Below, piece after piece: positions 5,628 through 26,042 of a stretch of DNA of 64,000 nucleotides. Location of the stretch: positions 2,652,001 to 2,716,000 of the forward strand of contig JAHRHY010000005.1 in NCBI GenBank assembly GCA_019671135.1, given 5' to 3'. Position numbers and translations under genes: made by a program. Position 1 is the first letter of the stretch; every line of letters starts with the position of its first letter. The notes under the pieces are model-generated. The model searched no databases. It was not told the DNA's origin and saw only the letters and a program-made list of their open reading frames with translations. Source of the DNA: Linnemannia hyalina. Its lineage: Eukaryota > Mortierellomycota > Mortierellomycetes > Mortierellales > Mortierellaceae.

Positions 5628-7362
5628 TTATTCTCTTCTCTTTGGGTACTTTCTCGAGGGTGCTTTGGGAAGAGCCTTGTAGTATTTATCAATTGAACCA
5701 ACAGTATCGATTTGCCCTCTTACGAAGGCAAGTGCATTGTTTACGGCGGACTTGTCAACCTGCAAGCCAGCTGGGATAGAGCGCAGAACCGAATGTACAA
5801 TGTCCTTCTTCCACTTGTAGAGCTGTGCATCTTTGCCTCGCCACGCTGAACCGAACCACCTATTAAGCTCTGCGATGGAGGGGGACCCATCGACGCCGTG
5901 GTAAACCCACTCTTGCCACAGTTGGTCGAGCGTATTCGGTCGTGGGATCAGCTTGCACTCGGGCATTAGGGGCATATGGTGTTGGGTCTCTCCTCTCGCC
6001 CTCTTCTCGTCGGCGACTAAGGCGGCTACTTGTCGCATTCTGTCCTCGACATTGTCGCTGGGGTTGAAAGCGGCCAGAGCTGCGCGGCGGTGCGCATCCC
6101 TTGAAAGAACTGCAGTGGAAGAAGTCAGAGGTCTTGATTCTTGCTGGCCAGCGTCCGGCTCTGGAAGCTGAAGAAGAGCGATGGCGGTAGCCATAGTGGT
6201 ACTCTGGCTTGCTACACTGCCGTTGACGTCGTCACTGACCTTCACCTCATCGTCCTCGCTAATCGCCACCACGGCTTCCACCGTTGACTTGAGAGCTTGC
6301 ATCAACTGAGATCGAACGGCATCCTTGTTCAAACATTGTCGCTTGTTGCCTGCCAGTTTGTCATTGTTGCCAATGCACCGCTTCAAGTCCTTCAGCTCGG
6401 ATGCTGTCCTATCATTCTGAGCTTGTAAAGTAGCTGCTAGAACATTCATACCGGCGTGCAAACTCTGAAGTCCGGCTTGCTGGCTTTGCTGCAGGCTCCG
6501 GATTGCAGCATCTTGGACACCGAGCCTCGCGCCGACCCTGTCAAACTCCAGTTGGATGATGGGTGTGGCAGATGCGAGGGAATCCGTGAGAGGAGAGGGA
6601 TTTCTCATGCTCTCGAGTAGGGTTTGCTGGAAATCTTGAAACGCAGGTGTTTTGAAGACAGGGTGATCGAAAACAGGGTGCGCGGCGGCAGCACCACCCC
6701 CGGACAGGATGACAGCTGCATCCTGAAGGATAACCTTTCGCAGGTGGGCGAGAAGGCTAAGATGGCGCTTTCTTGAAATGACCTCATTCGACAGAACGGT
6801 CTGCATATCCTTGTCCGTGTACACCTGCTTGACTTCCTTGCACTCGCCCCGTCGCAGCTTCTCACGCAACTCCTCGCGTCCGTGGAAAACGTCGCAGTCA
6901 CGCATAATGTTGTCAATCGTGAGCCTCCAGAACGTGTCGGAGCAAGCATCCTCGATGAAAGGGAACAACTGCCTTTGGAGCTCAATGCTGGGGATCACAG
7001 TGTTCCGAGCCAACCAAAAGCGCTCTAGACGGTCGCGGTCAAATCCAGCCAATCGAAGGGCCACTGAAGGCTCTACACCCTCGAGATAGTGAGTTGAGAG
7101 ACGGTTCGATGCCCAGTTCCCGTGCTTAGCGATAGCCTCTACCGTAGATCCACACATATGCGCGAATCTGGAGCCGTGCTTGCGCCCAAGGTGAGTCACT
7201 GTGCCCTTGTCCAATATCCCGCTCTCATGAAGAGCCTCCACCTGCGCCTGGAACTGGGAGTTGTAAGTCATCGGTGCATCCATTGGTTTGTTTCCAGCTA
7301 ACAGATGGTAGTCGGTCCATTTAGGGTTGGTGAGATCAGGCGCCCTTTTGTTTTTGCTCTTA
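5628..7362 (-). pseudogene. Crypton tyrosine recombinase, C-terminal half
   Basis: Catalytic C-terminal half of a Crypton-type tyrosine recombinase, an enzyme that moves its element by site-specific recombination through a circular form. Counting from the apparent ATG at 7394, residues 68-71 are HLGR (the HxxR box), GNW follows near 92-94, and Tyr103 in HYLEG is in the nucleophile position. A long linker follows, then a GCR1_C-like DNA-binding region near 495-550 (LWQEWVYHG, WRGKDAQLYKWKKDI), as in fungal Cryptons. The first 11 residues of the apparent ORF come from the inserted transposon; Crypton coding starts at the TAA target duplication. The other half is at 18079-19614. Removing the element with one TAA copy joins the halves in frame. 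Confidence 0.85.
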
Positions 7363-7813
7363 GGAGGCCATCCATGTTCGGCTCCACCAACCATAGACTA
7401 CAGTATAAAAATATCTGTCAACACCTATTAAAACAGTGTGTTCCTTGAGAGTACAACAAATCTCATCAGCTTTTTCCTTCCACCAGTCTCCATTTTCTAC
7501 ATTCACCACCACTACTTTGTAACATCATCTACTTTAGCTGAGAAAGCCTTGGACATGATCATCTCATATTGGATCCTGGATATTACAGATAGTAATTTCC
7601 TTTCCAATATGAGATGATCATGTCCAAGGCTTTCTCAGCTAAAGTAGATGATGTTACAAAGTAGTGGTGGTGAATGTAGAAAATGGAGACTGGTGGAAGG
7701 AAAAAGCTGATGAGATTTGTTGTACTCTCAAGGAACACACTGTTTTAATAGGTGTTGACAGATATTTTTATACTGTAGTCTATGGTTGGTGGAGCCGAAC
7801 ATGGATGGCCTCC
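7363..7813. repeat. 451 bp palindromic terminal unit, left end
   Basis: Almost perfect foldback: two arms of about 205 bp around a short asymmetric centre (ggatcctggatattacag...). The same unit, inverted, forms the other end of the large element (17628-18078). A free-standing copy with its own 3 bp duplication lies at 25532-25982. It is followed by TAG, as in the solitary copy. Confidence 0.85.
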
Positions 7814-8404
7814 TAGTAGAGCATTTGTTTTCGTGTTTATATAATTAGCGATGGTTACTAATATCTCCTTTTCATGATATATCCTATGTGTATATCCAAT
7901 ATAGCACTCGTGATACTGGTGATGATGTAGTGGTAGTTTTAAAAAAAAAGTTGGATCCCGATTTTTTTAAAAAGTAGCATAGTGGCTTTAACAAACATTG
8001 GTTGTTGGAAAGAAAGGGTAGCTGATACGTTTTTAATGGCGTTATTGCTACACTTTCTCAACAATATTCGACATTCGACATTTGACATTCGGCATTCGAT
8101 TCGACAGCTGACAAACTGTAGTTATTACCATAGTTATGATATTTGATATGAACGCATTTTGGATGACCTCGTGATTATCGTGATGTTTAATTTTAATACA
8201 TTCTTGATAAACTCGTAAGTATTACAATGTTTAATGTTGACATACTTTAGGTAAGCCCACGATTTGCACGACGTTTAATATTATTACACTTTGGTTAACT
8301 TACAATTGTTATAGCATTTATTGTTATACAGATTGTAGGTAATTACGACAATGGTAAAAACAGAGATATCGCAATTAGACCATGCATTGTGGGTAGTTGT
8401 AGAT

Positions 8405-8773
8405 ATAACAATTATATCGTTTAAAATAGACGTTTCTTAAAACACATCACATATTTTATAATGCAAATGGCTATTATATTACAACGTTTCTATTGCATTT
8501 TGTGTGATAACAAGATAGAAAAAATGTATTGTTAATAGAGTAATTATGTCGTTAAAAATAGACGTTTCTTAAAACACATCACATATTTCGTGATGCAAAT
8601 GGATATAAACATCGTGGCGTTTCTATCGCATTTTGTGTGATAATAAGGTAGAGAAAATGTGTTGTTAACAGAGTAATTATGTCGTTTAAAATGGACGTTT
8701 CTTAAAACGTATCACATATTTCGTGATGCCAATGGGTATAAACATTGTGACATTTCTATCGCATTTTGTGTGA
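8405..8773 (+). repeat. Iteron-like ~133 bp tandem repeats, left arm, outer part
   Basis: About three units of roughly 133 bp, each with ACGTTTCTTAAAAC(G/A), cacatatttcgtgatgcaaatgg and atcgcattttgtgtgata. The array is cut here by the Helitron and resumes at 11693. Confidence 0.8.
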
Positions 8774-10211
8774 CTAGAATGGTACCCGCGGCTTCGCTCG
8801 CGGAGGTGTGGGGCAAGTGTAAATTGACAAAAAAGTGGTGGTGGTTGATTATTGCAAAGTTTATTTATGATTGTCAGTTCCTCATTTCTCTCTCGCTTTT
8901 CTATTTGATTTTTTTTTCTGCCTTCACTTTTTTTTTCGTTTTGCCCTCCCTTCCTTATTTTTTGACGTCATATTTCCACAACTCGTGACGGCGTGCCAGG
9001 CCTGACTGATCCAAGCCATGGCCACGGGAAGGAGGTGTGAGACGGGACCCCTGGGAGCCCGAATGCCTATAGTTACACAACTTGGGTCGTATGAATGCCA
9101 TAAAGTGGCGAACACCGAGCCAGCCCCCCGCATCCCCAACGCGACCTGTCAGGTGTGATGAGTCGAGATCTCGGGTCAAAGATATTATACAGCAGTCTCC
9201 TTTCTTTCCTTTAAATGCAATACCATCTTACCATGTAAATGTTGTACAACCTTCTCGTCCGCGTCACTCAGACTTTGTTTGACAAATCGACTCGTTGCCT
9301 TGGCGGGCCAAATCCTGTCCCTGTCGGTTTCCCTCCCTTGCTCAAACCCGCCTTCTTCTCGAGCTGTTATTTCTTGGGTCTTCCCCTATTCGACCGTCGC
9401 CCTTGCAACGTACGTGCCATATCTCCGTCCTTTCAAAGTCTTCTATCGCACTTGCAATACCTTTTTTCTTTTTGCTTCCCTCTGTCAATGCATTTCACGG
9501 TTCTTTGAGCTGGTACCAAAGGACGTAAAGGCAATGGCATTGTTGAAGGTCCGGATGGTTGCAAGAAATAGCCCGGAGAAAAAGGTACCACCTCTGAAAG
9601 GCTTTGTAATTCATCAAGGGAAGCTTAATGACCGGCGTTTTGACTCTTAGACAGCAGAGAAACGTAGATTGGCGATTGTACGTCCAACACACTCCTGCGT
9701 TTTCAAAAGAAGTGATTAAATCGGGTATCAATAAAAATAAAGGAGGATGTAGAATAGTTGTAGGTAATATCGTAGACGGTTACCTCTATCCAATGTAAAG
9801 CACACAATGAGAGCATACCACGCTCATCGATCCCATGATCATGTACACTGTGTTGTCCTGATTCTTAACAGCTATTCTATTTCCAAAAACACTTAGATCA
9901 GCAGGAGCAACAGGAGCAACGGAAGCAGCAAGGATCGTGGAAGGAGTAGGAGCAAGAGATTCTGCAACGATCATGCGCTGTCTGCTCATAAGGCAATCCG
10001 GATGAGTTGTAAACAATGGTGATGGAGTTCTCTGCAAGCATTACATATCATAGCAGAGGACTGAGGAGCACCATGCAATGCGATGGCAATAGCTCGCTCA
10101 TGTTACCTAAATGGGTCGGAATGGTTGGCGCCGGGCTGGAACCATGCGTGGCTGCTACAATCATGCGTGACTGGGACAACCTGTGTCAGCCGGCTGTTCT
10201 CCTTCAGCAGG

Positions 10212-10530
10212 CGAGGGCTTGGGATCCCGTTTGGCGTAGTAGTAAAGCGTCCTCCACGCAATTTTGAGGTCCTGGGTTCGAGTCCTAGGAGAGCGTTTGG
10301 CTTGGCGCATGATCTCCTCATCTTACACTCAAAGAGTTGAGGGCTCCCCCCTCTTCTACAGCACAAAGTCTTCCCTCAAATTCAGAGTCTTGCCGCTGCC
10401 CCCTACACATTTCTTTCTCAAGTACCGTCTTTAGAAATAAAAAAACCCTGGTGGCTTGTTGCACCACTGGGGCTGTTCTCTCCTTACTGAGCCTTCCTAT
10501 GGGAAGGTTCAATTTAAACAAAAAAATCCA
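10212..10530 (+). mobile_element. tRNA-derived SINE inside Helitron A
   Basis: 319 bp, flanked by an 8 bp direct repeat TCAGCAGG (10204-10211 and 10531-10538). The 5' part carries RNA polymerase III type boxes: A-box-like TGGCGTAGTAGTAAAGCG and B-box GGTTCGAGTCC inside a T-arm-like hairpin. The 3' end is A-rich (aaacaaaaaaatcca). Helitron C has an uninterrupted site with one copy of the target. A shorter related copy lies at 60487-60750. It is not a functional tRNA: the putative acceptor stem does not pair. Confidence 0.8.
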
Positions 10531-11252
10531 TCAGCAGGTCGTCGTTGTCGCTTATGTTACCTAAATGGGCCGGAATGGTAGGCCTTAGGCTGGAAGCATT
10601 CTCCCGTTACCAATGCCTCCGCCGCCTGATCGATGACCCATCTTCACTCCCTTCACCCTCCCACTCAACCGTTGTCTGACTTGTAGTCTCGAACTGTTGA
10701 ACCACGTCAGCAATTGCAGCGTAAGCACCCTCGTCTGAAATAGTATCAAAGCTTGTTTCGCAGTTATCGCTATTATAAATTAGGAGTTGTGCTGCAAAGA
10801 GGCGGCAATCCGAGCAATTGTGGTCTGTTTGCCCTAAAATTACTGTTTGTTTTCATTTATAGTAGGGGCAGTAACAGCTTGTCGACCTTTGGAGACCGGT
10901 TCCACGTCCACGATACTTGGCACACCTACTGATGGAGGAGGAAGAGGAGGGAAAAGAGAGAAAAGAGGGGAAAAAATAAGAGGAGGAAGAAGAAGAGGAG
11001 GAGGAATGAGGAGGAAGAGTAAGGGGTGATGGCATTGAATTTGGCGGTGATAGTGGTGGTACATTTGGTGGAAAGGGAGTGCAGAGTGGAGGAAGTAGAG
11101 GGCGCGGTAGCAGTAGATCGACCTTGTTGAGTTGGTCGCCTTGGTCCGTCTGTATCCTGTAAAGGTCGTAGAAGGAGAGACATCGGGGGTGGAAGGGTAG
11201 TAAAAGTGACACGGTGAGAGCGAGTGGAAGGCATACTGGCTACTGACAGATA

Positions 11253-11337
11253 AAAAAAAAAAAAAAAAAAAAAAGAGGAAGGAAAGGAAAGGAAAGGAAA
11301 GGAAAGGAAAGGAAAGGAAAGGAAAGGAAAGGAAAGA
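11253..11337 (+). repeat. Poly-A plus (GGAAA)n microsatellite in Helitron A
   Basis: A run of about 20 A followed by roughly ten ggaaa pentamers. The corresponding (TTTCC)n tract in Helitron B is at 51085-51165. Length differs between copies, as expected for a microsatellite. Confidence 0.85.
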
Positions 11338-11692
11338 AAATATGCTTGTCCGTGAAAGTGAAAGAAAAGCCATCGGCTCTACTCTCTCCATTCTCCATTT
11401 TCGTATTTTAACATGCTTACTGCTTACCGGCAGATCTTCTTACCGGCATGGCTCTCATTCCGCAGTCGCATTTTAACATGCTTACCGGCAGATCTGCTTA
11501 CCGGTATGGCTCTGATTGCAACCCCCATCCATCTCTCATTTTTAATTTAATTAACTTTAAACTAAAAAAACGCACACTTGCACACATACACCAAACACAC
11601 ACCACACACACACACATTGAAAAAGAGAAAGAAAGATCATCACATGATTTACGTATATCAGGTGATCGGTGCAGTCGCTTTGTATTAGTAGA

Positions 11693-12250
11693 TAATAAGA
11701 TAGAAAAAATGTGTTGTTAACAGAGTAATTATGTCGTTTAAAATAGACGTTTCTTAAAACTTATCACATATTTCGTGATGCAAATGGGTATGAACATTGT
11801 GACATTTCTATCGCATTTTGTGTGATAATAAGGTAGAGAAAATGTGTTGTTAACAGAGTAATTATGTCGTTTAAAATGGACGTTTCTTAAAACGTATCAC
11901 ATATTTCGTGATGCAAATGGGTATGAACATTGTGACATTTCTATCGCATTTTGTGTGATAACAAGACAGAAAAAAGAAGTTGTTAACAGAATAGTTATGT
12001 CGTTTAAAATAGACGTTTCTTAAAACACATTACATATTTCGTGATGCAAATGGGTATGAACATTGTGACATTTCTATTGCATTTTGTGTGATAATAAGGT
12101 AGAGAAAATGTGTTGTTTAAAGAGCAACTATGTCTTTAAAAATAGACGTTTCTTAAAACGTACCCCATATTTCGTGATGCAAATGGGTATGAACATTGTG
12201 ACATTTCTATCGCATTTTGTATGATAACAAGACAGAAAAAAGAAGTTGTA
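11693..12250 (+). repeat. Iteron-like ~133 bp tandem repeats, left arm, inner part
   Basis: Continuation of the array after the Helitron: four to five units, each with the core ACGTTTCTTAAAACGT or a one-base variant, which is itself an inverted repeat (ACGTTT and AAACGT arms with a 4 nt spacer). A second small inverted repeat, TCAC...GTGA, surrounds cgaaatatg in most units. Confidence 0.8.
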
Positions 12251-12440
12251 TAAATAAAAGTTATGTAGACTTAGGAAATGTCTATAAAATATCGTTTGTA
12301 TACTTTGGTGGTTGGGAGAAAATTGGTGGTTACAAAAAAGTTGTCGCAAAACCGCCATGATGAAATACTTTGACATCTGGTTGAGGGGCTTGTTCCCCTA
12401 TCGTGTTTATCGTTAATAGTTTTAAAAAATCCAAAAGTGT

Positions 12441-12472
12441 GTTATATAAAGGAATTTTTGCTAATAGTTTAC
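12441..12472 (+). promoter_or_regulatory. Probable promoter of the Rep-like gene (in left arm)
   Basis: TTATATAAAGG at the inner edge of the left arm, about 175 bp before the ATG at 12619. Because it lies inside the inverted repeat, the same box faces the DDE gene from the right arm (about 15909-15920). A degenerate copy of the segment (ctaaaagtgtattgtagtat) recurs at about 12568. Confidence 0.5.
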
Positions 12473-12618
12473 GTTTAAATTCTCTTGAAATAGATGATAT
12501 ATGCATTATATTTCTATCCAATCTATCATGGAATATGAGATAACTTCTTTTATAGTGCAACAAATCTAAAAGTGTATTGTAGTATAGGCATTTTTCCTAA
12601 TGGTTTACTAGTTATGCA

Positions 12619-14572
12619 ATGCCAACACTTAAAGAAATTAAGCAAATAATAGCCATTTATATACATGAGCATCATATGGATCCTACAATGGCAATGTACT
12701 TGAGAGCTGTTTTGTTACGTGGTAAGTCTCAGCAAGAACTAAATGGTATGTCAAAGGAAGAACTGTGGGGATTGGTAGACTTTTTTGCACCAGATTTACA
12801 AAAACATATGCATGCAATTGGAGCATTATCATGGTCAGCACACAGAAAATTTGCTTCAGAGTAAAGTGGTTTTTAAAAAGTTTGTAGTACATATCTCTGC
12901 AAACAGTAAGCTATTCAACATGTCCGCTATACCTAAATCCATTAACAAGGCGCTGAACTCATATGCCCATCTTATCTCTGATGTGGGCAAAGAGATTGCA
13001 TTGCCTGGCAAACCGAAGACGGGCTGGAAAAAGTACTCAGAGATATTCTGCGATAGTTTAATACTCTGGGGATTGCACAACCGGGCTGCACTTGTTGACG
13101 AGCAGCGCAAAAACACCACTTCCAATATTCGCGAAGCTTTTAAAGGCCTCGATGTTAGCCACTCCATGGTTAAAGTTGTTAACGAGGGTTATATCAAAGA
13201 CAATAGTTTTTTTAGCTCTAAACTACTAGAAAAACATAGAAAAAAGTTTAGAAGTTCGGCCTTATACCATGCTGGTTACTTTAGCATTAAGGTAACGCTC
13301 CATGAACTAGAGGCCATATCTCTAATATCCGAGATAATACCAATACTTGATGAACTGGAGGTTGACTACGTTATCCTTCATGATATAGATATTGCTACGG
13401 ATTGTAGATATGTCACAAGCCGTCCAATTCTTCAACAGTACCTTCAAGAGAGATTTGGAGAAAATTTAGATATTGCCAACGATCTCCATAAGGTTGGTAA
13501 CCACTGTCTTTCTTGGTTTGGAGTCACCGAAAAAGACCAAAAGGTCCGTTGTAAGGTCTACAACAAACTTGTACAGATGTTGGAGAGTGCTGAAGTAAAA
13601 ATGTCGTTGGGTTCAAGAATGGAGAATTTTGTCATGGATGTGGATAAGGACCTACATAAGAGACTTCGAAAGGCAAAGAAAACAGGTCTAACAAGACTTG
13701 AACTTACCTTTTATGGACAGGAGATATATACATTCTCCTATTATAAAGGAGTTTTGGATGCCATAAAGGAAGAGATCCAAGAATGTCCCACCTTCTGCGT
13801 AAAGCACAAGGCATATTGGAAGTACATAGTTGGCAATATATCATCCATGGTAGGTATTCATGTAACAATGGGTGAAAAATCGGCATTCGCATATTGCCAT
13901 TGGTGGAACTCTGTTACAGGTAAGAAGTATGGTTCATATCGTAACAATGTCGAGAAAGAGGAAGCAATGACGTTGTTAGCCAACTATAGCTTCAACGATA
14001 GACCAATATACTTTTTGGAGGTTGAGATGGATGAGAATAGCATCAAGGATATTACAGTTACCAAGTACAAACGGCCTGACGAATGTACAGCAATAACACT
14101 TGTTGCAGGAGCACATAAAGGCATGTACCCATACATTTACGATGATGATGTTTTACAATTCGAGGATATGGGTATAGTGGAGGTAGATAATGTAAAGATC
14201 CAATGGCCTGAGAGAAGAATCCGCAAAGGTGCACCACCAATTGTTGATATTCATCTAGAAAACATGAATGGTGAGAATTTTATACAAGTCCATGATAGAG
14301 CTATCCACAAAGCAACATATAAAGCTGGATATAATGTACTTGAAATAAATACCAGCTATACAGTCATAGCAATTGCAATGGATATGTATCACAACAAAGA
14401 ATATATTTTTGCAACATTGTCCAATGGTATTAAAGTACGATGTGGACTTAGTTTAGAAATAAAGATCGTTGCATGGCTGGAAGAATATCCCGATGGCCAA
14501 GTTCCGTATATGAATTTCACCACATTGCAATGCAGAACTGTTCGCGGGTTCAAGGATATTTATATACGTTAA
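12619..14572 (+). CDS. Rep-like (rolling-circle initiator-like) protein of the 10.7 kb element
   Basis: Best model is two exons: 12619-12860 and 12907-14572, joined by removing a 46-base GTAAAG...ACAG intron. This keeps frame and gives about 635 aa. A simpler model starts at ATG 12920 (550 aa). Numbering from 12920, the order of motifs recalls plasmid/phage replication initiators of the Rep_trans kind: an acidic strand VDYVILHDIDIATDC (about 148-162), CKVYNKLVQMLE with a candidate catalytic Tyr (211-222), then TRLELTFYG (258-266). The C-terminal 250 residues are not recognised. No helicase, Myb or zinc-finger motif is seen. It converges on the transposase gene with 37 bp between stops. Role inferred: nicking or replication of element DNA, or DNA binding for the transposase. 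Family assignment is tentative. Confidence 0.6.
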
Positions 14573-14609
14573 GAATGCTAATAGATAGTTTTTAAAAATT
14601 ACAATGGGC

Positions 14610-15869
14610 TTACTTTGTACGCTTATATGATGGAATCTCCACTCCTGCAAAAATTTCACGTCGCTTATTAGTCGGCTCTTCCCGTTGTTTATCCTCGACA
14701 TCCATAGTAGTCATCTCCAAGAACTGCTCTTGTAACTTTGTTATATCTCGTGCATCATGCAACATCTCATCCACTGGAATATAATCCAAGATTTGTTCCA
14801 TTGCACCATTGGCATATGGAAAGTCGAAGCCATCTCTAATCCAGGCACTATGAATGGGTTCCAGATTTAACTGCAGTAGTGCCACCATCTTCTTGATGTT
14901 CATAAGTAAGAGACACAATCGCAATTGCAAATTATATGTTTCTATCTTGGTTACCAACACTGGTTTCCTATTGTTGTGCTTCTCAAAGGTTGCTCCAAGA
15001 TCTCCAAATTCGGCTTCTATCTGAGAGCGGAAACTGCCGAAAATCTTATTGTAGTTAGTTTCATCTTGTGCAAGATCTTTCCCACGGCTTTTGCGAATTG
15101 GATAACAAAAGTTTTTCTTGCTCATGCTTGTTTCTTCTACTATTTTCTTAATGTATTGTGTGTACCCTCCATCCAATGCAATACAATCTAGCTCGTGGAT
15201 GTGCTTATGTATCTTCATACCAACCAACATAGTACCATCGTTGTTATCCTTGCAAGGTAGCGATTTAGAGACTAGTATTGCCATGCCATTGCAATCGACA
15301 CACACTTGCGTTCTTACACCAGATTTCTTCAGCTTGTAAGAGTACATGTCTGAGCTAGACTTTTCTTCACATGAAAGACGTGTATCATGACCATCCAAAT
15401 GCAATGTTACATGTGGGAATAGTGGTGGATTCCTGAGTTTAGCAGACATCAAGCGTATAGGAAATGTGGAGAACATATTCGCAAGTGCATGGTTAATATG
15501 CTTCGAATGCACATTATAGTTAGTCTTGTAGAACTCTGTATGAATGGAGTGGAAACTACTTTTTGGTATGTGGGTTGACATTCCATCCATTGCCAAGCCT
15601 GCAACTAAGTGGTACAATATCAACAATCCTTTGTCGACTTCTCTGTATGGACCTGGATACTGCTTGAGAGACCAAATAACTACAAGAAAGTAGAATACAG
15701 GAATTGCACCTAATCTTCTTATAAGTAAGTCTTTAACAGTTTTCATATGTGCTACTAGCTTCAACGCAGTCCTATGATTATTAGATGGTTCTTGCGTAGG
15801 CCATTCTACATCCAAAAAAGTCCATTCATCCTCTAACAACCGTTGAAATAGGCGCTTTAAGTTTGCCAT
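14610..15869 (-). CDS. DDE_Tnp_4 / PIF-Harbinger-like transposase
   Basis: About 419 aa, intronless, start chosen at ATG 15869 (MANLKRLFQR); an upstream in-frame Met at 15923 lies in the repeat arm and is less likely. The catalytic triad can be read: Asp159 in HLDGHDTRL, Asp233 in IALDGGYTQYI, and Glu285 in FRSQIEAEFGDL, preceded by YNKIFGSF. The last block matches the R..iE..FG signature of Harbinger transposases, and the 51-residue D-E spacing fits. It would cut and rejoin the element ends and, as usual in this group, generate 3 bp target duplications, which is what is seen (TTA). No internal stop or frameshift, so it may be functional. Confidence 0.82.
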   Translation of the reverse strand: MANLKRLFQRLLEDEWTFLDVEWPTQEPSNNHRTALKLVAHMKTVKDLLIRRLGAIPVFYFLVVIWSLKQYPGPYREVDKGLLILYHLVAGLAMDGMSTHIPKSSFHSIHTEFYKTNYNVHSKHINHALANMFSTFPIRLMSAKLRNPPLFPHVTLHLDGHDTRLSCEEKSSSDMYSYKLKKSGVRTQVCVDCNGMAILVSKSLPCKDNNDGTMLVGMKIHKHIHELDCIALDGGYTQYIKKIVEETSMSKKNFCYPIRKSRGKDLAQDETNYNKIFGSFRSQIEAEFGDLGATFEKHNNRKPVLVTKIETYNLQLRLCLLLMNIKKMVALLQLNLEPIHSAWIRDGFDFPYANGAMEQILDYIPVDEMLHDARDITKLQEQFLEMTTMDVEDKQREEPTNKRREIFAGVEIPSYKRTK

Positions 15870-15899
15870 GACTGTAATTACAACCTGGTAAACTATTAG

Positions 15900-15921
15900 C
15901 AAAAATTCCTTTATATAACAC
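15900..15921 (-). promoter_or_regulatory. Probable promoter of the DDE transposase gene (in right arm)
   Basis: Mirror copy of the TTATATAAAGG box, about 45 bp upstream of the likely ATG at 15869 on the minus strand. Identical sequence in both arms would give both genes the same core promoter and similar regulation. Confidence 0.5.
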
Positions 15922-16127
15922 ACTTTTGGATTTTTTAAAACTATTAACGATAAACACGATAGGGGAACAAGCCCCTCAACCAGATGTCAAAGTATTTCAT
16001 CATGGCGGTTTTGCGACAACTTTTTTGTAACCACCAATTTTCTCCCAACCACCAAAGTATACAAACGATATTTTATAGACATTTCCTAAGTCTACATAAC
16101 TTTTATTTATACAACTTCTTTTTTCTG

Positions 16128-17035
16128 TCTTGTTATCATACAAAATGCGATAGAAATGTCACAATGTTCATACCCATTTGCATCACGAAATATGGGGTAC
16201 GTTTTAAGAAACGTCTATTTTTAAAGACATAGTTGCTCTTTAAACAACACATTTTCTCTACCTTATTATCACACAAAATGCAATAGAAATGTCACAATGT
16301 TCATACCCATTTGCATCACGAAATATGTAATGTGTTTTAAGAAACGTCTATTTTAAACGACATAACTATTCTGTTAACAACTTCTTTTTTCTGTCTTGTT
16401 ATCACACAAAATGCGATAGAAATGTCACAATGTTCATACCCATTTGCATCACGAAATATGTGATACGTTTTAAGAAACGTCCATTTTAAACGACATAATT
16501 ACTCTGTTAACAACACATTTTCTCTACCTTATTATCACACAAAATGCGATAGAAATGTCACAATGTTCATACCCATTTGCATCACGAAATATGTGATAAG
16601 TTTTAAGAAACGTCTATTTTAAACGACATAATTACTCTGTTAACAACACATTTTTTCTATCTTATTATCACACAAAATGCGATAGAAATGTCACAATGTT
16701 TATACCCATTGGCATCACGAAATATGTGATACGTTTTAAGAAACGTCCATTTTAAACGACATAATTACTCTGTTAACAACACATTTTCTCTACCTTATTA
16801 TCACACAAAATGCGATAGAAACGCCACGATGTTTATATCCATTTGCATCACGAAATATGTGATGTGTTTTAAGAAACGTCTATTTTTAACGACATAATTA
16901 CTCTATTAACAATACATTTTTTCTATCTTGTTATCACACAAAATGCAATAGAAACGTTGTAATATAATAGCCATTTGCATTATAAAATATGTGATGTGTT
17001 TTAAGAAACGTCTATTTTAAACGATATAATTGTTA
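16128..17035 (-). repeat. Iteron-like ~133 bp tandem repeats, right arm
   Basis: Uninterrupted mirror of the left array. The string acaaaatgc recurs seven times at about 133 bp spacing (near 16138, 16272, 16405, 16537, 16671, 16803 and 16937), each time followed by the ACGTTTTAAGAAACGT palindrome or a close variant. Confidence 0.85.
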
Positions 17036-17627
17036 TATCTACAACTACCCACAATGCATGGTCTAATTGCGATATCTCTGTTTTTACCATTGTCGTAATT
17101 ACCTACAATCTGTATAACAATAAATGCTATAACAATTGTAAGTTAACCAAAGTGTAATAATATTAAACGTCGTGCAAATCGTGGGCTTACCTAAAGTATG
17201 TCAACATTAAACATTGTAATACTTACGAGTTTATCAAGAATGTATTAAAATTAAACATCACGATAATCACGAGGTCATCCAAAATGCGTTCATATCAAAT
17301 ATCATAACTATGGTAATAACTACAGTTTGTCAGCTGTCGAATCGAATGCCGAATGTCAAATGTCGAATGTCGAATATTGTTGAGAAAGTGTAGCAATAAC
17401 GCCATTAAAAACGTATCAGCTACCCTTTCTTTCCAACAACCAATGTTTGTTAAAGCCACTATGCTACTTTTTAAAAAAATCGGGATCCAACTTTTTTTTT
17501 AAAACTACCACTACATCATCACCAGTATCACGAGTGCTATATTGGATATACACATAGGATATATCATGAAAAGGAGATATTAGTAACCATCGCTAATTAT
17601 ATAAACACGAAAACAAATGCTCTACTA

Positions 17628-18078
17628 GGAGGCCATCCATGTTCGGCTCCACCAACCATAGACTACAGTATAAAAATATCTGTCAACACCTATTAAAACA
17701 GTGTGTTCCTTGAGAGTACAACAAATCTCATCAGCTTTTTCCTTCCACCAGTCTCCATTTTCTACATTCACCACCACTACTTTGTAACATCATCTACTTT
17801 AGCTGAGAAAGCCTTGGACATGATCATCTCATATTGGAAAGGAAATTACTATCTGTAATATCCAGGATCCAATATGAGATGATCATGTCCAAGGCTTTCT
17901 CAGCTAAAGTAGATGATGTTACAAAGTAGTGGTGGTGAATGTAGAAAATGGAGACTGGTGGAAGGAAAAAGCTGATGAGATTTGTTGTACTCTCAAGGAA
18001 CACACTGTTTTAATAGGTGTTGACAGATATTTTTATACTGTAGTCTATGGTTGGTGGAGCCGAACATGGATGGCCTCC
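17628..18078. repeat. 451 bp palindromic terminal unit, right end
   Basis: Inverted copy of 7363-7813, preceded by CTA and followed by the TTA target duplication. Its centre is in the opposite orientation to that of the left unit, as required by the overall inverted symmetry. Confidence 0.85.
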
Positions 18079-19614
18079 TTAGTACAGCAAAAAAAAGGAA
18101 GAGGTGGGGGGAAGAACGCATTATTAAATGAGTGTTGAAATATGAGTGACACGACGCGTCGGCCGCCGACATTTACCACATGCACGCCACTTACCGACCA
18201 AAGCTCAAGCAAATAAAAGGCTAGCGCGCCAACTGGACACACATCTACTTCTTTGTTCCGAACTGCAACTCCATACTGAATCTTGCCGTCCTTGTTCGTC
18301 TTGCCTTGCCTCATCATCAGCACAACTCCAAGCACGAATTGGCCTTCTCTGCAGCTGGCATCGTTCGTATTTTTGTTGCGGTTGGGCTCGACGTCGTGGG
18401 CGAAAAGATCCGGGAGTCGGATCTGGCGTGTGACCTCGCTGCGGAACATCATAAAAAAGCAAAGACTTACATCCGCACGGTCGCGTAACCCTTTCAAGCG
18501 GCGCTTTCTCAAGCTGGCTGCGCCCTCCACATTGCGCATCCAGAATCGCTTCATTAGCTGCCGAACAATCGAAGTTGGGTTCTGGGTGAAGTCGATAGAG
18601 CCAAAGTCGGTATCTGTCGACCTCTTCCTGGCGGACATCCTCACGCGGTAAACGTCGATCAGAGGTTGAAGGTACGTCTTCGGGGCCGGAACTGTGCCAT
18701 AATCCATCGCTAAATTGTTCCTGTCTTCACACTGATGCTTATAGAGGTCGCCAATGGCAGCGAGGTGCAAGAGAATGGTTGCCGTCGAGTACCACCGCTC
18801 TTCACTGTTATCGTTGTTGCTGTTGTGGATGTCAACGTCTCGACTGGCGTCCCCCTCGCAGTCGTCATCGCTTTTGTCCTCCACATCGCCTCCATCGACA
18901 TCATCATCAGAACACGGGTCATCCATATTTGCCCGCCGTTCGCCGGACTTGTCCTTGCTGTTGTTGCCCTTCCTGTCTCTTGGCAACGGTTTGATCCGTA
19001 TAATACCTATAGCATTTATATTTTCGTTAGTTCTTATAATTTCAAACACCACCATAGCGTTTCGTCGTCGTCGTCGTATCGTATGACCGCTCACATTAGT
19101 TCCATTCTTCATATTCATACCGTTTTGAGGATCTTCCGTCTCGCAGGTCAGGCAAGCAAAGTAACGGGTTACTTTGCCTTTCGTGACGTTGTAATCATCC
19201 TTATATCCAGAAACGTCGCACCATTCCTATACCAATGGATGGAGTGATTGAGTTAGTTAGTGCGTCGAGTCGGGGGCCATAGTTTATCTATGCTTGTGCA
19301 AAAATGGGGGTACATTTTACAATTTGCCATACCATGAACTTCTCCTGGTACCGATCATACTGGTCCCGCGTCGACTGGGCTTGCAAGGACTTGCGAGCTT
19401 CGGCCACAAGCTGGGAGCTTGCTAGCTCCTTCTGCTTATTACAGAGGTGATTTTGCTGTTCAACCCTATTGCGTTCGCGGTAGGTTTCCAGCTTAGATTT
19501 TGCTCTTGCCGGCTGGCTGCCTTGCATGCTCGTCTGCTGCCGTTTGTTTCGTGCTATGGCTTTGCCTTTAACAGAAAAGCTGCACGACTTGTTTAACGCG
19601 AAACAATAAAACAA
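18079..19614 (-). pseudogene. Crypton tyrosine recombinase, N-terminal half
   Basis: First half of the split Crypton. Probable exon 1 runs to 19321 from ATG 19527 (MQGSQPARAK) or 19614. Intron 19227-19320 has GTAAAA at the donor, a textbook CTAAC branch and TATAG at the acceptor. Exon 2 runs from 19226 into the transposon. It encodes EWCDV...YKDDYNVTKGKVTRY (N-terminal SAM-like region), an acidic patch, QHQCE-like and FWMRN blocks, then FFMMFRSEVTRQIRLPDLF, where the R..E..R box supplies the first catalytic arginine, and AVRNKEVDVCPVGALAFYLL. The frame enters the transposon end and stops after about 11 foreign residues at 18045. With the C-terminal half, the undisturbed protein would be about 1,030 aa. 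Confidence 0.82.
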
Positions 19615-20458: not shown

Positions 20459-20807
20459 TGTAACAGGATCATAGGTTCTACTGCGCCTCATTAGTCAGCA
20501 CCTATTAGTAAGCACCTATTAGTCAGCACCTATTAGTCATCATCCATTAGTCAGCACCCATTAGTCAGCACCCCATTAGTCAGCACCCCATTAGTCAGCA
20601 CTTCCATTAGTCAGCGCCCATTAGTCAGCAACATCCACTCTGTATATATAGCCCCAATCCTCGTAATAACACCATCATCAATTCTTGCACCTTTCAACCT
20701 TGCTCTCCTGTTCCCTCTTGTCTCTTTCTTGTCCTTGTCCCTGTTTACTCTTGTCTCTTCCTTGTCCTTGTCCTTGTCCCCTGGCCTTTATCTCTGTTCC
20801 TATTACA
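20459..20807 (+). repeat. Solo LTR, family 2, in 5' leader of the 666-aa gene
   Basis: 349 bp, starts TGTAACAGG and ends CCTATTACA, flanked by a perfect 5 bp target duplication CATCC (20454-20458 and 20808-20812). Its first part is a minisatellite of CATTAGTCAGCACC units (about 20488-20635), followed by a TATA box (tgtatatatagcc) and a CTTGTCCTTGTC-rich part. A second, inverted solo copy with duplication AACCC is at 25241-26042, and a related LTR is at 39546-39840. Confidence 0.9.
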
Positions 20808-20950
20808 CATCCATACCTATACAACCATCTTTTATTGCAATTCTTTGTATCACAGTGTATTAAGCAGCTGCAATCTACCACACATAAACTGAAAACTCAT
20901 TCACGCCTACCATACCACGAGTAAAGTTTACATCTTCCATATCCGAAAAC

Positions 20951-22951
20951 ATGAAGTGCGTTCAGCTTACGATCGAGCTCATCACCAAGGCCTTCGAGGC
21001 ATTTTGCTATAAGAAGGGAGTGGAATTTAACAAGAAAGATGCAAATAAGATCTTTAAGGCGCTTGATGAGGATGAAGAAGTAGAGCGATACTACTTTTGT
21101 GGAGCAAAATGCGCCAAGTCCAAGCGCGATTGCATGAGAGAAGTCGACGAAGGCATGCATTGTTATGTCCACGATCCTGCGCGCAAGTGTCAAGGCACAA
21201 CCGTTAAAGGCGCCCAATGTCGTAGTGTAGCCAAAGCTGGTGAAACACACTGCAAACATCATCGAGATCAAGATAGAGGTCACATGAAAAGTAGTAACAA
21301 TAAGGCACCTGTCGACAAGCATACCGAGCGTTCCAAGAATTTAAAGAAGATACATACTTCTAAGTTTGTATCTTCCGATGACGATATGACTTCCGAGGAT
21401 GAAAAACCAAAGAAGCGAAAGAGAAACAAGCAGGAGTCATCGGATGAAGAGCCGTCCAATGATGATGATGAAGATATAATTGCCGTCTCCTTTCCGTTGA
21501 GTCCAAAGGTAGTTGACATAACGTCCAAGAAAAATGTACCACTCGCTAATACATGTATATGGACGCGTTATGCAACTAATCCAGCTTTCCTGTATGCAAA
21601 AAGCTTTACTGTAAATGGCAAGTACATTATTAGGCTAAAGGAAAAGAATCTCTACATTGCATTGTGTCCACCTGAGCTCATGGGCAAGAATCTCCCTGCG
21701 CCAGAAATATCTGAGAAAGAGGCACGCATATTGGACAAGATGGGACTCCAAGAGGCAACTCCTGCAGATGTAGAAAAAATAGAAGAGTCTTCTGCTGATG
21801 AGAATTCTGACGATGATACAGATGATGGTGATACGTCTGATGATGCTGGCTCTGTCGATGATACAGATGATGGTGATACGTCTGATGATGCTGGCTCTGA
21901 CGATGATTCCTCTGATGATAAAGACTCTGATGATGGCAAGTCCAATAACAGACCTGATGTGGAATCTGGAGATGATACCTCTAAGGATAACCCTGATGAA
22001 AAACTATCTCATAAAAAGCCATCTAAGGATGATGAGAAGAAGACTTCTCGAAAGAAAAGGCATTCAGAGATGCCCAAAAATGCAGAGCCATCTTCTAATG
22101 TAGATGATTCTAAGGATGAAAAAGGTGAACATACATTTGCACTGTCCACAATGGTGCGTAACATTAGATCAGAGAAAGACATATTATTTGCAAAGGACAG
22201 AGGATGGATGGTTCATCCTAATAACGACATGCTTGAGTATGCAATTAGGGTTACGATGAATGGCAATTACATTGTCAGGCTATCTGGAAAGAATACATAC
22301 GTTGGCCTATTTACGCTTGATCATCTGCGCGGTGTTGGTGATGTTCCAGAGATGGATATCTTGGAACGCTCCATGCTTAGCAAGATGAGACTTCAACCAA
22401 TGTCTGATGAAGAGAGAAAGATGCTTTTCAACGACGATGTTGAAGTAGAAGAGGGACTTCCAGTGGAAGGACCGACAGATATATCCAAGATGAAATGGAA
22501 AAGGTTTCACAAGCAGCAATTGGAGTATTCCAAGAATGTACTTGTAAATGGAAAGCACATTCTCAAGATCCGCAAGCAAAATGTTGTAGTTGGCTTGGTG
22601 ACTGATGACCACATTTTTGCAGAGAATGTAGACCATGATAATCTTAACCAAAAGGAAAAAGAAAAGACCTTTGCCATGGGCATTAAGCTACAAATGTCTG
22701 AGGATAGGTTGACAGAGAAAGATGAACCGGTAGAAAAAATAGATGATAAGATGCAAGAGTTGAATGTTAAGGAAACTCTAGAAGATGAACTTGTAGAAAA
22801 AGTAGATGATGAGGTGCAAGAGTCGGATGTTAAGAAAACACTAGAAGATGGTGGACATATGGAAAGCGGCCTCTCCATGTGCAAAGGATATAATAAGGCA
22901 TATACAAAATATCCAAAGCCCAAGGATTACAGTGTTGACTTCCATAGCTGA
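20951..22951 (+). CDS. 666-aa acidic zinc-finger protein, unknown function
   Basis: I do not recognise the family. Visible features: two consecutive Cys/His clusters (about residues 50-75 and 81-103; the second, CQGTTVKGAQCRSV...HCKHH, follows a CxGxTxxGxxC...CxxH pattern known from small zinc-binding repeats in viruses and eukaryotes). A basic patch follows (KKRKRNK), then three copies of a ~65-aa module with core VNGKYIIRLKEKNLYIAL / MNGNYIVRLSGKNTYVGL / VNGKHILKIRKQNVVVGL near 215-235, 435-455 and 535-555. Modules 1 and 2 are separated by a long Asp/Ser-rich linker containing an exact internal duplication. Single exon, no signal peptide. Base composition is more AT-rich than the cupin or CRN genes. 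A nuclear or DNA-binding role is conceivable but unproven. Confidence 0.6.
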   Translation: MKCVQLTIELITKAFEAFCYKKGVEFNKKDANKIFKALDEDEEVERYYFCGAKCAKSKRDCMREVDEGMHCYVHDPARKCQGTTVKGAQCRSVAKAGETHCKHHRDQDRGHMKSSNNKAPVDKHTERSKNLKKIHTSKFVSSDDDMTSEDEKPKKRKRNKQESSDEEPSNDDDEDIIAVSFPLSPKVVDITSKKNVPLANTCIWTRYATNPAFLYAKSFTVNGKYIIRLKEKNLYIALCPPELMGKNLPAPEISEKEARILDKMGLQEATPADVEKIEESSADENSDDDTDDGDTSDDAGSVDDTDDGDTSDDAGSDDDSSDDKDSDDGKSNNRPDVESGDDTSKDNPDEKLSHKKPSKDDEKKTSRKKRHSEMPKNAEPSSNVDDSKDEKGEHTFALSTMVRNIRSEKDILFAKDRGWMVHPNNDMLEYAIRVTMNGNYIVRLSGKNTYVGLFTLDHLRGVGDVPEMDILERSMLSKMRLQPMSDEERKMLFNDDVEVEEGLPVEGPTDISKMKWKRFHKQQLEYSKNVLVNGKHILKIRKQNVVVGLVTDDHIFAENVDHDNLNQKEKEKTFAMGIKLQMSEDRLTEKDEPVEKIDDKMQELNVKETLEDELVEKVDDEVQESDVKKTLEDGGHMESGLSMCKGYNKAYTKYPKPKDYSVDFHS

Positions 22952-23135
22952 TGTATCTCTTTAAAGTCGGCAATAGAACATGAAATAAAATAGCAATAGA
23001 TAGCGGCCTCTCCATGTGCAAAGGAGATAACAAGGCATATACAAAATATCCAAAGCCCAAGGAATACAGTGTTGACTTCCATAGCTGATGTATCTCTTTA
23101 AAGTCGGCAATAGAACATGAGATAAAATAGCAATA
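22862..23135 (+). repeat. Tandem duplication of the 3' end of the 666-aa gene
   Basis: The last ~30 codons plus 3' flank (ggcctctccatgtgcaaagg ... gcaatagatagc, about 125-135 bp) are repeated immediately downstream. The C-terminal peptide (KAYTKYPKPK.YSVDFHS) and its stop are preserved in the second copy. A third, inverted copy is at about 24985-25065. Confidence 0.8.
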
Positions 23136-23142
23136 GATAGCA

Positions 23143-23862
23143 CATGTTTTTTTAAAATGTAATCTCTCCCCTGTATTTCACGACAAAAATACAGCTGAGG
23201 ATACAAGTGCTTTAGATGATCACATACAAGAAGTACTACCCTTAATCTTGCAGTGAGGGTTACAGTTTAATAGTAGATGGACACATTCAAGAGATTGGTG
23301 TGCGAAAAATAAGAAGACTTTGTTGTTTGGAGAATAGGTTGGTGTTTAGTAGGATAGTTATGCAAGGAATGTTACAGTGGTTGTTTTACATGGTGGATAT
23401 TATACATACACTCTCCTCTAATGGTCGCTGTAGATATTGTCAAGGTCTGCAGAGATGTAACATATACTATATTACAATTTGGACTTGAAAGGCCTCCATA
23501 GCACATGTTTTTTTAAAATGTAATCTCTCACCTGTATTTCACGACAAAATACAGCTGAGGGTACAGGTGCTTTAGATGATCACATACAAGAAGTACTACC
23601 CTTAATCTCGCAGTGAGGGGTACAGTTTAATAGTAGATGGACACATTCAAGAGATTGGTGTGCGAAAAATAAGAAGACTTTGTTGTTTGGAGAATAGGTT
23701 GGTGTTTAGTAGGATAGTTATGCAAGGGATGTTACAGTGGTTGTTTTACATGGTGGATATTATACATACACTCTCCTCTAATGGTCGCTGTAGATATTGT
23801 CAAGATCTGCAGAGATGTAACATATACCATATTACAATTTGGACTTGAAAGGCCTCCAAAGT
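23143..23862 (+). repeat. Tandem ~360 bp repeat, two copies
   Basis: cacatgtttttttaaaatgt ... aggcctcca occurs twice (about 23143-23500 and 23503-23862) with only scattered differences. An inverted, more diverged copy occupies about 24575-24935. Each contains a 62-codon open frame, but I see no sign that it is a gene. Confidence 0.8.
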
Positions 23863-24249
23863 GAAAATGTGAATGCCTCAAGTGTTTACATTACAAAAGA
23901 CCATCATGATTTTCTTAAGGCAATGGGAGAAGTATATAGCAAAATAACAGCTATCGAAGAAGAACTCCGTGAGGAATACGTTTCGGCAGGTGGTAGTGCA
24001 GAAGAATAAGAACTAATTTCTCACCTAGATTTGTTGGAGAAAGAATATTCCAACTACGAAACATGGCACAAGGATAAGTTTGGTTCCCGCGAACCACATT
24101 GCGATACGTTATATACGTTCGCAAAAGAAGGATCTAGAAACAGAAGAACCATAGTGCAAAGTGTATTAGACAGTATTTCAGCCAAAGAGAACAGTACGAT
24201 GGAAGAAAAGAAGCCTCTTCAAGTAACATTTGAGACCGCAGAAGAGTAG
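23862..24249 (+). pseudogene. Small pseudogene fragment with in-frame stop
   Basis: One reading frame is open from about 23868 (ASSVYITKDHHDFLKAMGEV) to a TAA at about 24007, and resumes in the same frame to 24249 (DLLEKEYSNYETWHKDKFGS). This looks like a gene of at least 120 codons broken by one stop. No family recognised. It sits in the spacer between the inverted repeats 22862-23862 and 24575-25065. Confidence 0.4.
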
Positions 24250-24384
24250 ATCAAGAATTTTAAAAGCTGTAAATGTACTACTTGCACAGAGAAACCTTTT
24301 ATATACGGAATACACATGTAATAATATCCTTGTCCCTCTCAATGAGATTCACCAGATATATCACCCATCTTTTTAAAAACTTCC

Positions 24385-24580
24385 ACCACCGACACTACCG
24401 ACATCATCGACAACCACCACCGACAACACCGACAACACCGACACCATCGACACCCTTAACAACCATCCTCAACAACCACCATCGACAAAAACACGACAAG
24501 CAACAACAAACCGACAACCCGACAACAAAACGACCAGCAACAACAACCCGACAACAACTCGACAACAACCAACAAGGAGG
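24385..24580 (+). repeat. (CGACAACAC)n-like simple sequence
   Basis: Low-complexity stretch of ccgacaac/accaccgac motifs with no strict period, next to the inverted copy of the ~360 bp repeat. Confidence 0.7.
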
Positions 24581-25065
24581 CCTTTCACGTCCAAATTATC
24601 ATATGGTGTTTGTTACACCTCTGTAGATCTCGACGATATCCATAGCGACTATGAGATGAGAATGTATATATGATACCAAGCATGTAAGACAACCATTGTA
24701 ACATTTTTTGTTTAACTATCCTACTAACCACCATGATATTCTTCAAACAACAAAGTCTTCTTATTTTTTGCACACCAATCTCTTGAATGTCTCCATCTAC
24801 TATTAAACTGTACCCATCACTGCGAGATTAAGGGGAGTAGTTCTTGTATGTGATCATCTAAAGCACCTATACTCTCAACTGTATCTTTGTCGTGAAATAC
24901 AAGGAAGAGATTACATTTTAAAAAATCTTGTGCTGTCTATTGCTATTTTATTCCGTGTTCTGTTGCCCACTATAAAGAGATATGTCAGCTATGGAAGTCA
25001 ACACTCCGTTCCTTGGGCTTTGGATATTTTTTATATGCCTTTTTATATCCTCTGCACATGAAGGG
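24575..25065 (-). repeat. Inverted copy of the 22862-23862 repeats
   Basis: Reverse complement of the ~360 bp repeat, followed outward by the reverse complement of the 666-aa gene's last codons (peptide ending YPKPKERSVDFHS). With 22862-23862 it makes a large imperfect palindrome of about 2.2 kb. Confidence 0.75.
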
Positions 25066-25240
25066 GCCGCCTGGGAGAGATACCCCTGGGAGTCGCCGGC
25101 AGAGTCGACTGATACTTCTATAGTAAGTAGCCTAGACCTTCTGGGAGAAATGTGCTACAGTGCTCCAATCAATTGATCAATAAAAACGTGATTTCAACGT
25201 TTCTTTTGAAATGCTCATTCATCAATGTTCTAAGCAACCC

Positions 25241-26042
25241 TGTAATAGGAACAGAGATAAAGGCCAGGGGACAAGGACAAGGACAAGGAAGAGACAAGAG
25301 TGAACAGGGACAAGGACAAGAAAGAGACAAGAGGGAACAGGAGAGCAAGGTTGAAAGGTGCAAGAATTGATGATGGTGTTATTACGAGGATTGGGGCTAT
25401 ATATACAGAGTGGATGTTGCTGACTAATGGGTGCTGACTAATGGAAGTGCTGACTAATGGGGTGCTGACTAATGGGTGCTGACTAATGGATGATGACTAG
25501 TGGATGATGACTAATAGGTGCTGACTAATAGGGAGGCCATCCATGTTCGGCTCCACCAACCATAGACTACAGTATAAAAATATCTGTCAACACCTATTAA
25601 AACAGTGTGTTCCTTGAGAGTACAACAAATCTCATCAGCTTTTTCCTTCCACCAGTCTCCATTTTCTACATTCACCACCACTACTTTGTAACATCATCTA
25701 CTTTAGCTGAGAAAGCCTTGGACATGATCATCTCATATTGGAAAGGAAATTACTATCTGTAATATCAAGGATCCAATATGAGATGATCATGTCCAAGGCT
25801 TTCTCAGCTAAAGTAGATGATGTTACAAAGTAGTGGTGGTGAATGTAGAAAATGGAGACTGGTGGAAGGAAAAAGCTGATGAGATTTGTTGTACTCTCAA
25901 GGAACACACTGTTTTAATAGGTGTTGACAGATATTTTTATACTGTAGTCTATGGTTGGTGGAGCCGAACATGGATGGCCTCCTAGGTGCTTACTAATAGG
26001 TGCTGACTAATGAGGCGCAGTAGAACCTATGATCCTGTTACA
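25241..26042 (-). repeat. Solo LTR, family 2, interrupted by MITE
   Basis: Reverse orientation relative to 20459-20807: starts TGTAATAGG and ends CCTGTTACA, with perfect 5 bp duplication AACCC (25236-25240 and 26043-26047). Subtracting the 451 bp MITE and its 3 bp duplication leaves 348 bp, the expected LTR length. It lies in the left arm of the mariner-like foldback. Confidence 0.9.
25532..25982. mobile_element. 451 bp palindromic MITE, solitary copy
   Basis: Same 451 bp unit that forms both ends of the 7363-18078 element (same GGAGGCCATCC ends, same arms, same central sequence with one or two changes). It is bounded by TAG on each side (25529-25531 and 25983-25985). It lies in the minisatellite part of the solo LTR. 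This is strong evidence that the unit is mobilised by itself, presumably by the Harbinger-like transposase. Confidence 0.88.

Follow-up and report, generated by a model that had tools for sequence, protein, structure and literature searches.

In a 64,000-nucleotide stretch of the Linnemannia hyalina genome (contig JAHRHY010000005.1, positions 2,652,001 to 2,716,000; hereafter the window) we encountered a mobile element in which a DDE transposase of the PIF/Harbinger-ISL2EU-Spy (PHIS) type is paired with a protein that appears to be a Rep_trans-like nickase. The element integrates with a 3-bp duplication, its gene pair recurs across the genome, and the nickase-like active site of the partner is conserved; its palindromic tips occur in flip and flop orientation as well as alone, and its outer arms are homogenised within most copies. 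On balance we favour the reading of a PHIS-type transposon whose Rep_trans-like nickase probably serves to copy it, amplification being partly replicative. Papers are cited by PubMed Central number.

Structure and mobility of the element

A first-pass annotation, made from the letters of the window, had described a 10.7-kb element with exact ends, a TTA duplication, two nearly identical long arms, iteron-like arrays in both arms, 451-bp foldbacks at both tips and two convergent open reading frames (ORFs) with mirrored TATA boxes. This description is confirmed (Table 1), with some corrections. Positions 7363 and 18078 are the precise element ends, each flanked by TTA and having GGAGGCC as its terminal sequence, and the arms are in fact 100% identical (7343-8773 against 16668-18098, which includes a few flank bases, and 11691-12472 against 15888-16669). 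Tandem 133-bp arrays are present in each arm, the foldbacks consist of 212-213 bp arms around 29 bp at both element ends, and the ORFs of 586 aa (+) and 419 aa (-) are each preceded by the same arm sequence, including TATATAAAGG. The coordinates of the 10.7-kb span are also correct, but they take in a 2,917-bp insertion that had gone unmentioned and that splits the left arm; the length without it is also that of other copies (e.g. L009, 1071-8867). Apart from the nested insertion, the 7.8-kb unit has, beyond the two main genes, one further ORF of at least 100 aa, which lies antisense to the Rep-like gene, and the ends of two Crypton ORFs that extend a few bases into the tips.

Copies were sought in the genome assembly (51.5 Mb, 50 contigs). 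When the flanks of the element were joined without it, 18 other places matched over all 320 bases, eight of them identically, with a single TTA. The structure of the element is therefore not a product of chance, and the insertion is young. The identical empty sites, taken with the near-identical copies, suggest recent activity, which makes the element testable. Integration is thus documented by duplications, empty sites and near-identical copies, and the enzymology of the transposase is presumed from its family.

The Rep-like protein gave 81 match rows in the genome, which fall into a family A (mostly 96-100% identity) and a family B (39-41%), and the transposase gave at least 100. We read the 20 best-scoring family-A copies together with the window (21 in all). 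Both outer ends were readable in 13 copies, the window included, and 11 of these have a perfect 3-bp duplication, the end triplets being mismatched in L010 and L016. The duplication is therefore upheld but its sequence is not fixed as TTA; eight sequences were seen (TTA, TAG, ATA, ATG, TAT, AAA, CAT and TTT), always with A or T as the middle base. The TWA target site of canonical PIF/Harbinger elements is represented by one of the 11 matching duplications, namely the TTA of the window. The target is a loose AT-rich 3-bp site, unlike the TWA of canonical Harbinger, and is not restricted to the TWA, ANT, CWG or TNA duplications described for PHIS elements (PMC4482050).

The transposase matches DDE_Tnp_4 with an E value better than the curated Pfam cut-off, and its triad (D159, D233 and E285) is conserved at 100% among 107 aligned transposases, comprising the window protein and 106 of at least 390 aa from 120 listed. 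Counts over both protein sets drew on 87 of the 89 Rep-like relatives and on these 120 listed out of 278 transposases. With DDE_Tnp_4, the D, D, E triad and a 3-bp duplication all present, the transposase belongs in PHIS.

The gene pair is recurrent. Absence of the Rep-like ORF from other copies, which the first-pass annotation had named as fatal to its proposal, is not what we observed: a convergent Rep-like gene lies within 100 bp in 38 of the 42 family-A transposase places (89% identity or more), and a transposase adjoins 38 of 48 family-A Rep pieces. These counts used 76 of the 81 Rep rows (five short end pieces were omitted) and the 42 transposase rows of at least 89% identity among the best 100 of 306 candidates, 58 rows at 56-58% being omitted. 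The distinct lineage that had been suggested is borne out, in that a PHIS/Harbinger-type DDE transposase is accompanied by a Rep-like protein where a Myb/SANT partner would be expected; element replication, also raised there as a possibility, is probable.

The Rep-like protein and its predicted active site

The Rep-like ORF is present as described, at 586 aa, but is probably incomplete. There is likely to be an extra 5' exon at 12619-12833: translated, it aligns with the N-terminus of P0018 from Mortierella claussenii, a protein in which it is fused to Rep (phmmer E 2.4e-16, 214 proteins). This exon has no Pfam match. The partner is under purifying selection: between subfamilies we counted 30-34 synonymous and 10-12 nonsynonymous differences, giving a ratio of nonsynonymous to synonymous rates (Ka/Ks) of 0.08-0.09. 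For family B, two comparisons gave 0.25 and 0.28 and a third, based on seven changes, gave 0.68.

Sequence searches of Pfam, NCBIfam, PHROG and the PDB (the last with a profile) returned no credible match to the partner. Plasmids gave no match and phages a single chance-level one (E 1, 12% covered), while pattern-based scans turned up no confirmed relative among viral contigs or in GTDB genomes. We found 89 relatives, of which the 13 with organism names are all from Mortierellaceae (Haplosporangium, Mortierella, Podila, Actinomortierella, Gryganskiella and Linnemannia). Only one distant group came out of a second profile search, namely P0089 and five others (P0210-P0214) on contigs up to 206 kb; P0089, the one member aligned, is 26% identical and keeps the invariant motif residues.

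The "Rep-like" label, although unrecognised by sequence libraries, is backed by catalytic motifs, with an agreeing predicted fold. In its AlphaFold model (pLDDT 92) the partner is as similar to TBP as it is to Rep_trans rolling-circle initiators, the two sharing a TBP-like two-sheet fold; a C-terminal region of about 250 residues has no confident fold match. In an alignment of the window protein with 32 of the 89 relatives, D45, D157, Y214, K216, R259 and E261 are invariant (33 of 33) and Q219 is present in 32; the invariant positions match the published Rep_trans nickase site. The partner has the three acidic ligands (motifs N', I and IV) and the strand-borne tyrosine with its lysine (motif III, YxKxxE/Q). 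Two features are missing: the arginine of motif I (RxD) is replaced at position 155 by D in 32 sequences and by N in one, and positions 196-201 do not fit motif II (T/SxY/ExG). PF02486 (Rep_trans) is absent among the matches of the 33 members, and its hidden Markov model (HMM) gave no match in the genome at E values up to 10, with a positive Bacillus subtilis control. We have not filed the partner in PF02486, because of the lack of an HMM match and of these two motif features, and regard it as Rep_trans-like by its catalytic residues, with which the modelled fold agrees. HUH families are absent among the Pfam and NCBIfam matches, no HxH occurs in invariant or 90% columns, and no helicase family appears among the Pfam matches. 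The partner is thus a putative non-HUH, metal-dependent tyrosine nickase of the Rep_trans type, with Y214 as the likely nucleophile and D45, D157 and E261 as candidate metal ligands; we infer that it nicks and replicates the element.

Given the shared fold, the partner might instead be a transcription or DNA-binding factor without nickase activity. We think this very unlikely, since the invariant D..DxxxD..YxK..RxE set on those strands would not be expected in TBP and the TBP fold is itself found in Rep_trans proteins (PMC13107129).

It is also conceivable that the Rep-like protein is merely an accessory of the transposase, binding the ends and nicking or resolving cruciform tips, with plain cut-and-paste transposition and copy number raised through host repair; by analogy, the Myb/SANT partner may act so in Harbinger. 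The two genes are adjacent, palindromic tips could need a hairpin-processing factor, and in most PHIS groups a second ORF encodes a DNA-binding protein (PMC4482050). Against this, a pure DNA-binding partner would not need the invariant nickase-site residues, including the tyrosine and its lysine. The homogenisation of outer arms within most copies, described below, speaks against this explanation as well, and we consider it unlikely.

Flip/flop tips and homogenised arms

The asymmetric 29-bp loop of the terminal palindrome, read from outside to inside, occurs in two orientations, designated A and B. Among 34 arm-tip readings, which represent 33 physical tips since one is shared, 17 are A and 17 are B. 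The terminal palindromes therefore exist in both flip and flop orientation, as in rolling-hairpin replicons. In the 14 copies with both tips the pairs are AA in five, BB in four, AB in two and BA in three. A further count from the strand data of listed tips, which follows a loose 6.5-kb rule and partly overlaps the tips already read, gave 15 A and 13 B.

Once loop orientation had been made uniform, 10 of 14 copies showed no difference between left and right arm over the outer 1,038 bp; in the remaining four the arms differ at one (L013), two (L017), nine (L024) and one (L026) columns. Arms differ on average by 0.93 within copies and 3.45 between copies, a within-copy value that none of 20,000 permutations reached, although the copies are related and this is not a clean probability. 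Rarer bases are found in both arms of the same copy (L009 and L020; L010, L011 and L012). By contrast, array length is unequal between the arms of some copies (e.g. L014).

Loop flipping and arm identity could also be produced by the host, the former by recombination between the 212-bp arms, which inverts the 29-bp loop, and the latter by gene conversion, with Rep uninvolved. We regard this as quite possible for the tips, if somewhat short of an even chance. In bacterial insertion sequences, terminal inverted repeats have been documented to recombine and so cause inversions (PMC3004938), and recombination at tips is suggested here by one tip common to the neighbouring elements L013 and L024 and by the mosaic arms of L024, with their nine differences. 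Against this, the window, L014, L015 and L019 share one outer-arm haplotype over 1,038 bp yet have loop pairs AA, BA, AB and BA; flipping therefore outruns point mutation, so that either each copying cycle brings roughly one flip or recombination is very frequent. As an account of the tips alone, the host explanation leaves room for an element driven by Rep.

According to the replicative view that we favour, the PHIS-type DDE transposase would cut at the GGAGGCC ends and integrate the element at loosely AT-rich sites with a 3-bp duplication. Rep would most likely bind the arm repeats, and would nick the element at the palindromic tips and start strand-displacement copying. Copying through the terminal hairpins, in a rolling-hairpin manner, would then yield flip/flop loops and equalise the arms within a copy; the patterns are observed, and this cause for them we infer. 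In its fullest form, the proposal is that a first eukaryotic lineage of Rep_trans-type nickases resides in a DDE transposon, the transposase excising and integrating the element and the nickase copying it via its palindromic tips in a cycle akin to rolling-hairpin replication; we put this forward tentatively, as a possibility.

Tips without the element are also found. One solo 451-bp tip lies in the window at 25532-25982, with TAG on both sides, within the right end of another element, and a second (L030) lies between AAA and AAA. Thirteen of 41 listed tips are more than 6.5 kb from every family-A Rep piece used; this count drew on 41 of 84 tip rows (opposite-strand duplicates and two partial rows being omitted), on 42 Rep pieces and on 40 scored out of 118 candidates. 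A tip by itself appears to be mobile, in the manner of a miniature inverted-repeat transposable element (MITE). Flip/flop palindromic ends and a Rep would also suit the relic of a linear DNA virus or plasmid that had integrated together with its inverted terminal repeats, but such an origin is extremely unlikely: the exact duplications of the target, the empty sites and the tips found alone are transposon behaviour, the 7.8-kb unit has just two main genes and a small exon, and pattern-based scans of viral contigs gave no relative. The Rep_trans-like (non-HUH) nature of the Rep, the flip/flop and MITE-like solo tips and the loose 3-bp target all go beyond the first-pass annotation.

Family B was read in three stretches. 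Its copy L088 (1536 to 6774) has ATA duplications, terminal repeats of about 320 bp, convergent Rep and transposase genes and a small divergent ORF of 130 aa; the palindromic tip is absent and the right end is tandemly duplicated. Right ends of this family (L029:23-1602 and L088:6043-6789) carry 413-bp tandem copies of terminal sequence in variable number, perhaps a trace of replicative slippage.

Comparison with known systems

A DDE_Tnp_4 transposase, 3-bp duplications and two ORFs are common to the element and to PIF/Harbinger and other PHIS transposons (PMC4482050). The partner differs in having no YqaJ match and no Myb/SANT match (with a limit of E 1, no Myb/SANT family was obtained for it, for 32 relatives or for the inferred first exon), the palindromic tips are also found alone, and the 2.19-kb arms contrast with PIF/Harbinger terminal inverted repeats, about 93% of which are shorter than 60 bp (PMC4482050). 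The Rep_trans (PF02486) initiators RepDE and RepSTK1 and the MOBT relaxases have the same D / DxxxD / YxK / RxE order and strand placement as the partner, and their fold resembles the one modelled for it (PMC4797284, PMC6499999). Relative to them, the partner has no HMM match, carries D for the R of motif I, has an unmatched motif II and is located in a fungal transposon. Rep-Arvir of archaeal viruses and plasmids is likewise tied to Rep_trans through structure rather than sequence, but is archaeal (PMC13107129). KolobokP of animals resembles the element in having terminal units with their own ends, alone or multimeric, and in combining a DDE transposase with a nuclease; it differs in its direct-repeat terminal units, its His-Me finger homing nuclease and its membership of the Kolobok superfamily (PMC9587614). 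Long terminal direct repeats of the KolobokP type are not found here, where tips and arms are inverted.

Parvovirus terminal hairpins also combine flip/flop palindromes with an encoded nickase. Parvoviral Rep/NS1 proteins are HUH enzymes with a superfamily 3 helicase, whereas the element has a putative non-HUH nickase, no helicase family among its Pfam matches and ends presumably made by a transposase. Helitrons have HUH and helicase domains and make no target duplication, whereas integration here is of the DDE type. Like the element with its putative nickase, they are eukaryotic transposons that use a nickase of the replication-initiator kind. Helitrons and rolling-hairpin replication of adeno-associated virus are both treated in one source (PMC5714925).

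In open-licence literature, a search with Repbase outside its range, we found no earlier description of this transposase/Rep pair or of a eukaryotic Rep_trans protein. Before an archaeal branch was reported in 2026, Rep_trans initiators had been described as apparently confined to bacteria (PMC13107129). A fungal, multicopy and apparently young member would bring a second, non-HUH solution to replication initiation into eukaryotes. It would make it possible to examine directly whether cut-and-paste transposition and a self-encoded replication initiator can go together in one transposon, and the flip/flop ends of the element offer a cheap readout of terminal copying. Were the proposal in its fullest form true, the element would stand for a replicative class of DNA transposons in eukaryotes, "copy, then paste", whose flip/flop ends are like those of parvoviruses but whose enzymes are unrelated.

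Other features of the window and related elements

Table 1. Coordinates of the element and its parts in the window
Feature	Position	Strand	Remarks
Whole element	7363..18078	+	10,716 bp; about 7.8 kb without nested insertion
Target-site duplication TTA, left	7360..7362	.	18 paralogous empty sites
Target-site duplication TTA, right	18079..18081	.	
Left tip, 451-bp palindrome	7363..7813	+	29-bp loop 7574-7602, orientation A
Left arm, outer part	7363..8773	+	100% match to 16668-18078 read in reverse complement
133-bp tandem (iteron-like) array, left arm part 1	8410..8773	+	
Nested insertion, Helitron-like ends	8774..11690	-	2,917 bp; splits left arm, foreign to element proper
Left arm, inner part	11691..12472	+	Remaining 133-bp array and promoter region with TATATAAAGG; 100% match to 15888-16669 read in reverse complement
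133-bp tandem array, left arm part 2	11691..12241	+	
Rep-like gene, inferred first exon	12619..12833	+	71 codons + 2 nt
Rep-like gene, GT-AG intron	12834-12906	+	73 nt
Rep-like gene, main exon	12907..14572	+	Putative Rep_trans-like nickase; residues numbered from ATG at 12920
DDE transposase	14610..15869	-	419 aa; DDE_Tnp_4 (PHIS/Harbinger type), Pfam E 2.2e-7; D159 D233 E285
Right arm	15888..18078	-	Unbroken, 2,191 bp
133-bp tandem array, right arm	16129..17031	-	6.8 copies
Right tip, 451-bp palindrome	17628..18078	-	29-bp loop 17839-17867, orientation A

Helitrons characteristically insert between A and T, begin with TC at the 5' end and close with a hairpin and CTAG at the 3' end. Read as its reverse complement, the nested insertion starts with TC (these two bases being ambiguous with the flank), ends in a hairpin and CTAG, and is situated between A and T; by these features it is Helitron-like. 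The CTAG end of the insertion is multicopy, with 41 match rows across the genome when that of the window is counted, and 34 of these begin at base 1. As a Helitron it would probably be non-autonomous.

The element breaks a gene with NDC10_II and GCR1_C Pfam matches (5628-7394 and 18045-19118), which we take to be of the Crypton type; both of its ORFs extend a few bases into the element tips. Judged by eye, many copies are no more than tens of kb away from a contig end (for example in C1, C2, C3, C9, C11 and C33). No TTAGGG array was seen at the C2 and C3 ends that were read, both of which lie inside such elements.

A third family is represented by a transposase of 57% identity (58 listed places at 56-58%). 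In the one place read (L031, 1380-2759 and 3397-5619) the neighbour of the transposase, in Rep's stead, is a 740-aa protein without a Pfam match. A second element of the window, at 20459-26042, has inverted arrays of 14-bp repeats at its ends and encodes a 666-aa ORF that resembles this 740-aa protein.

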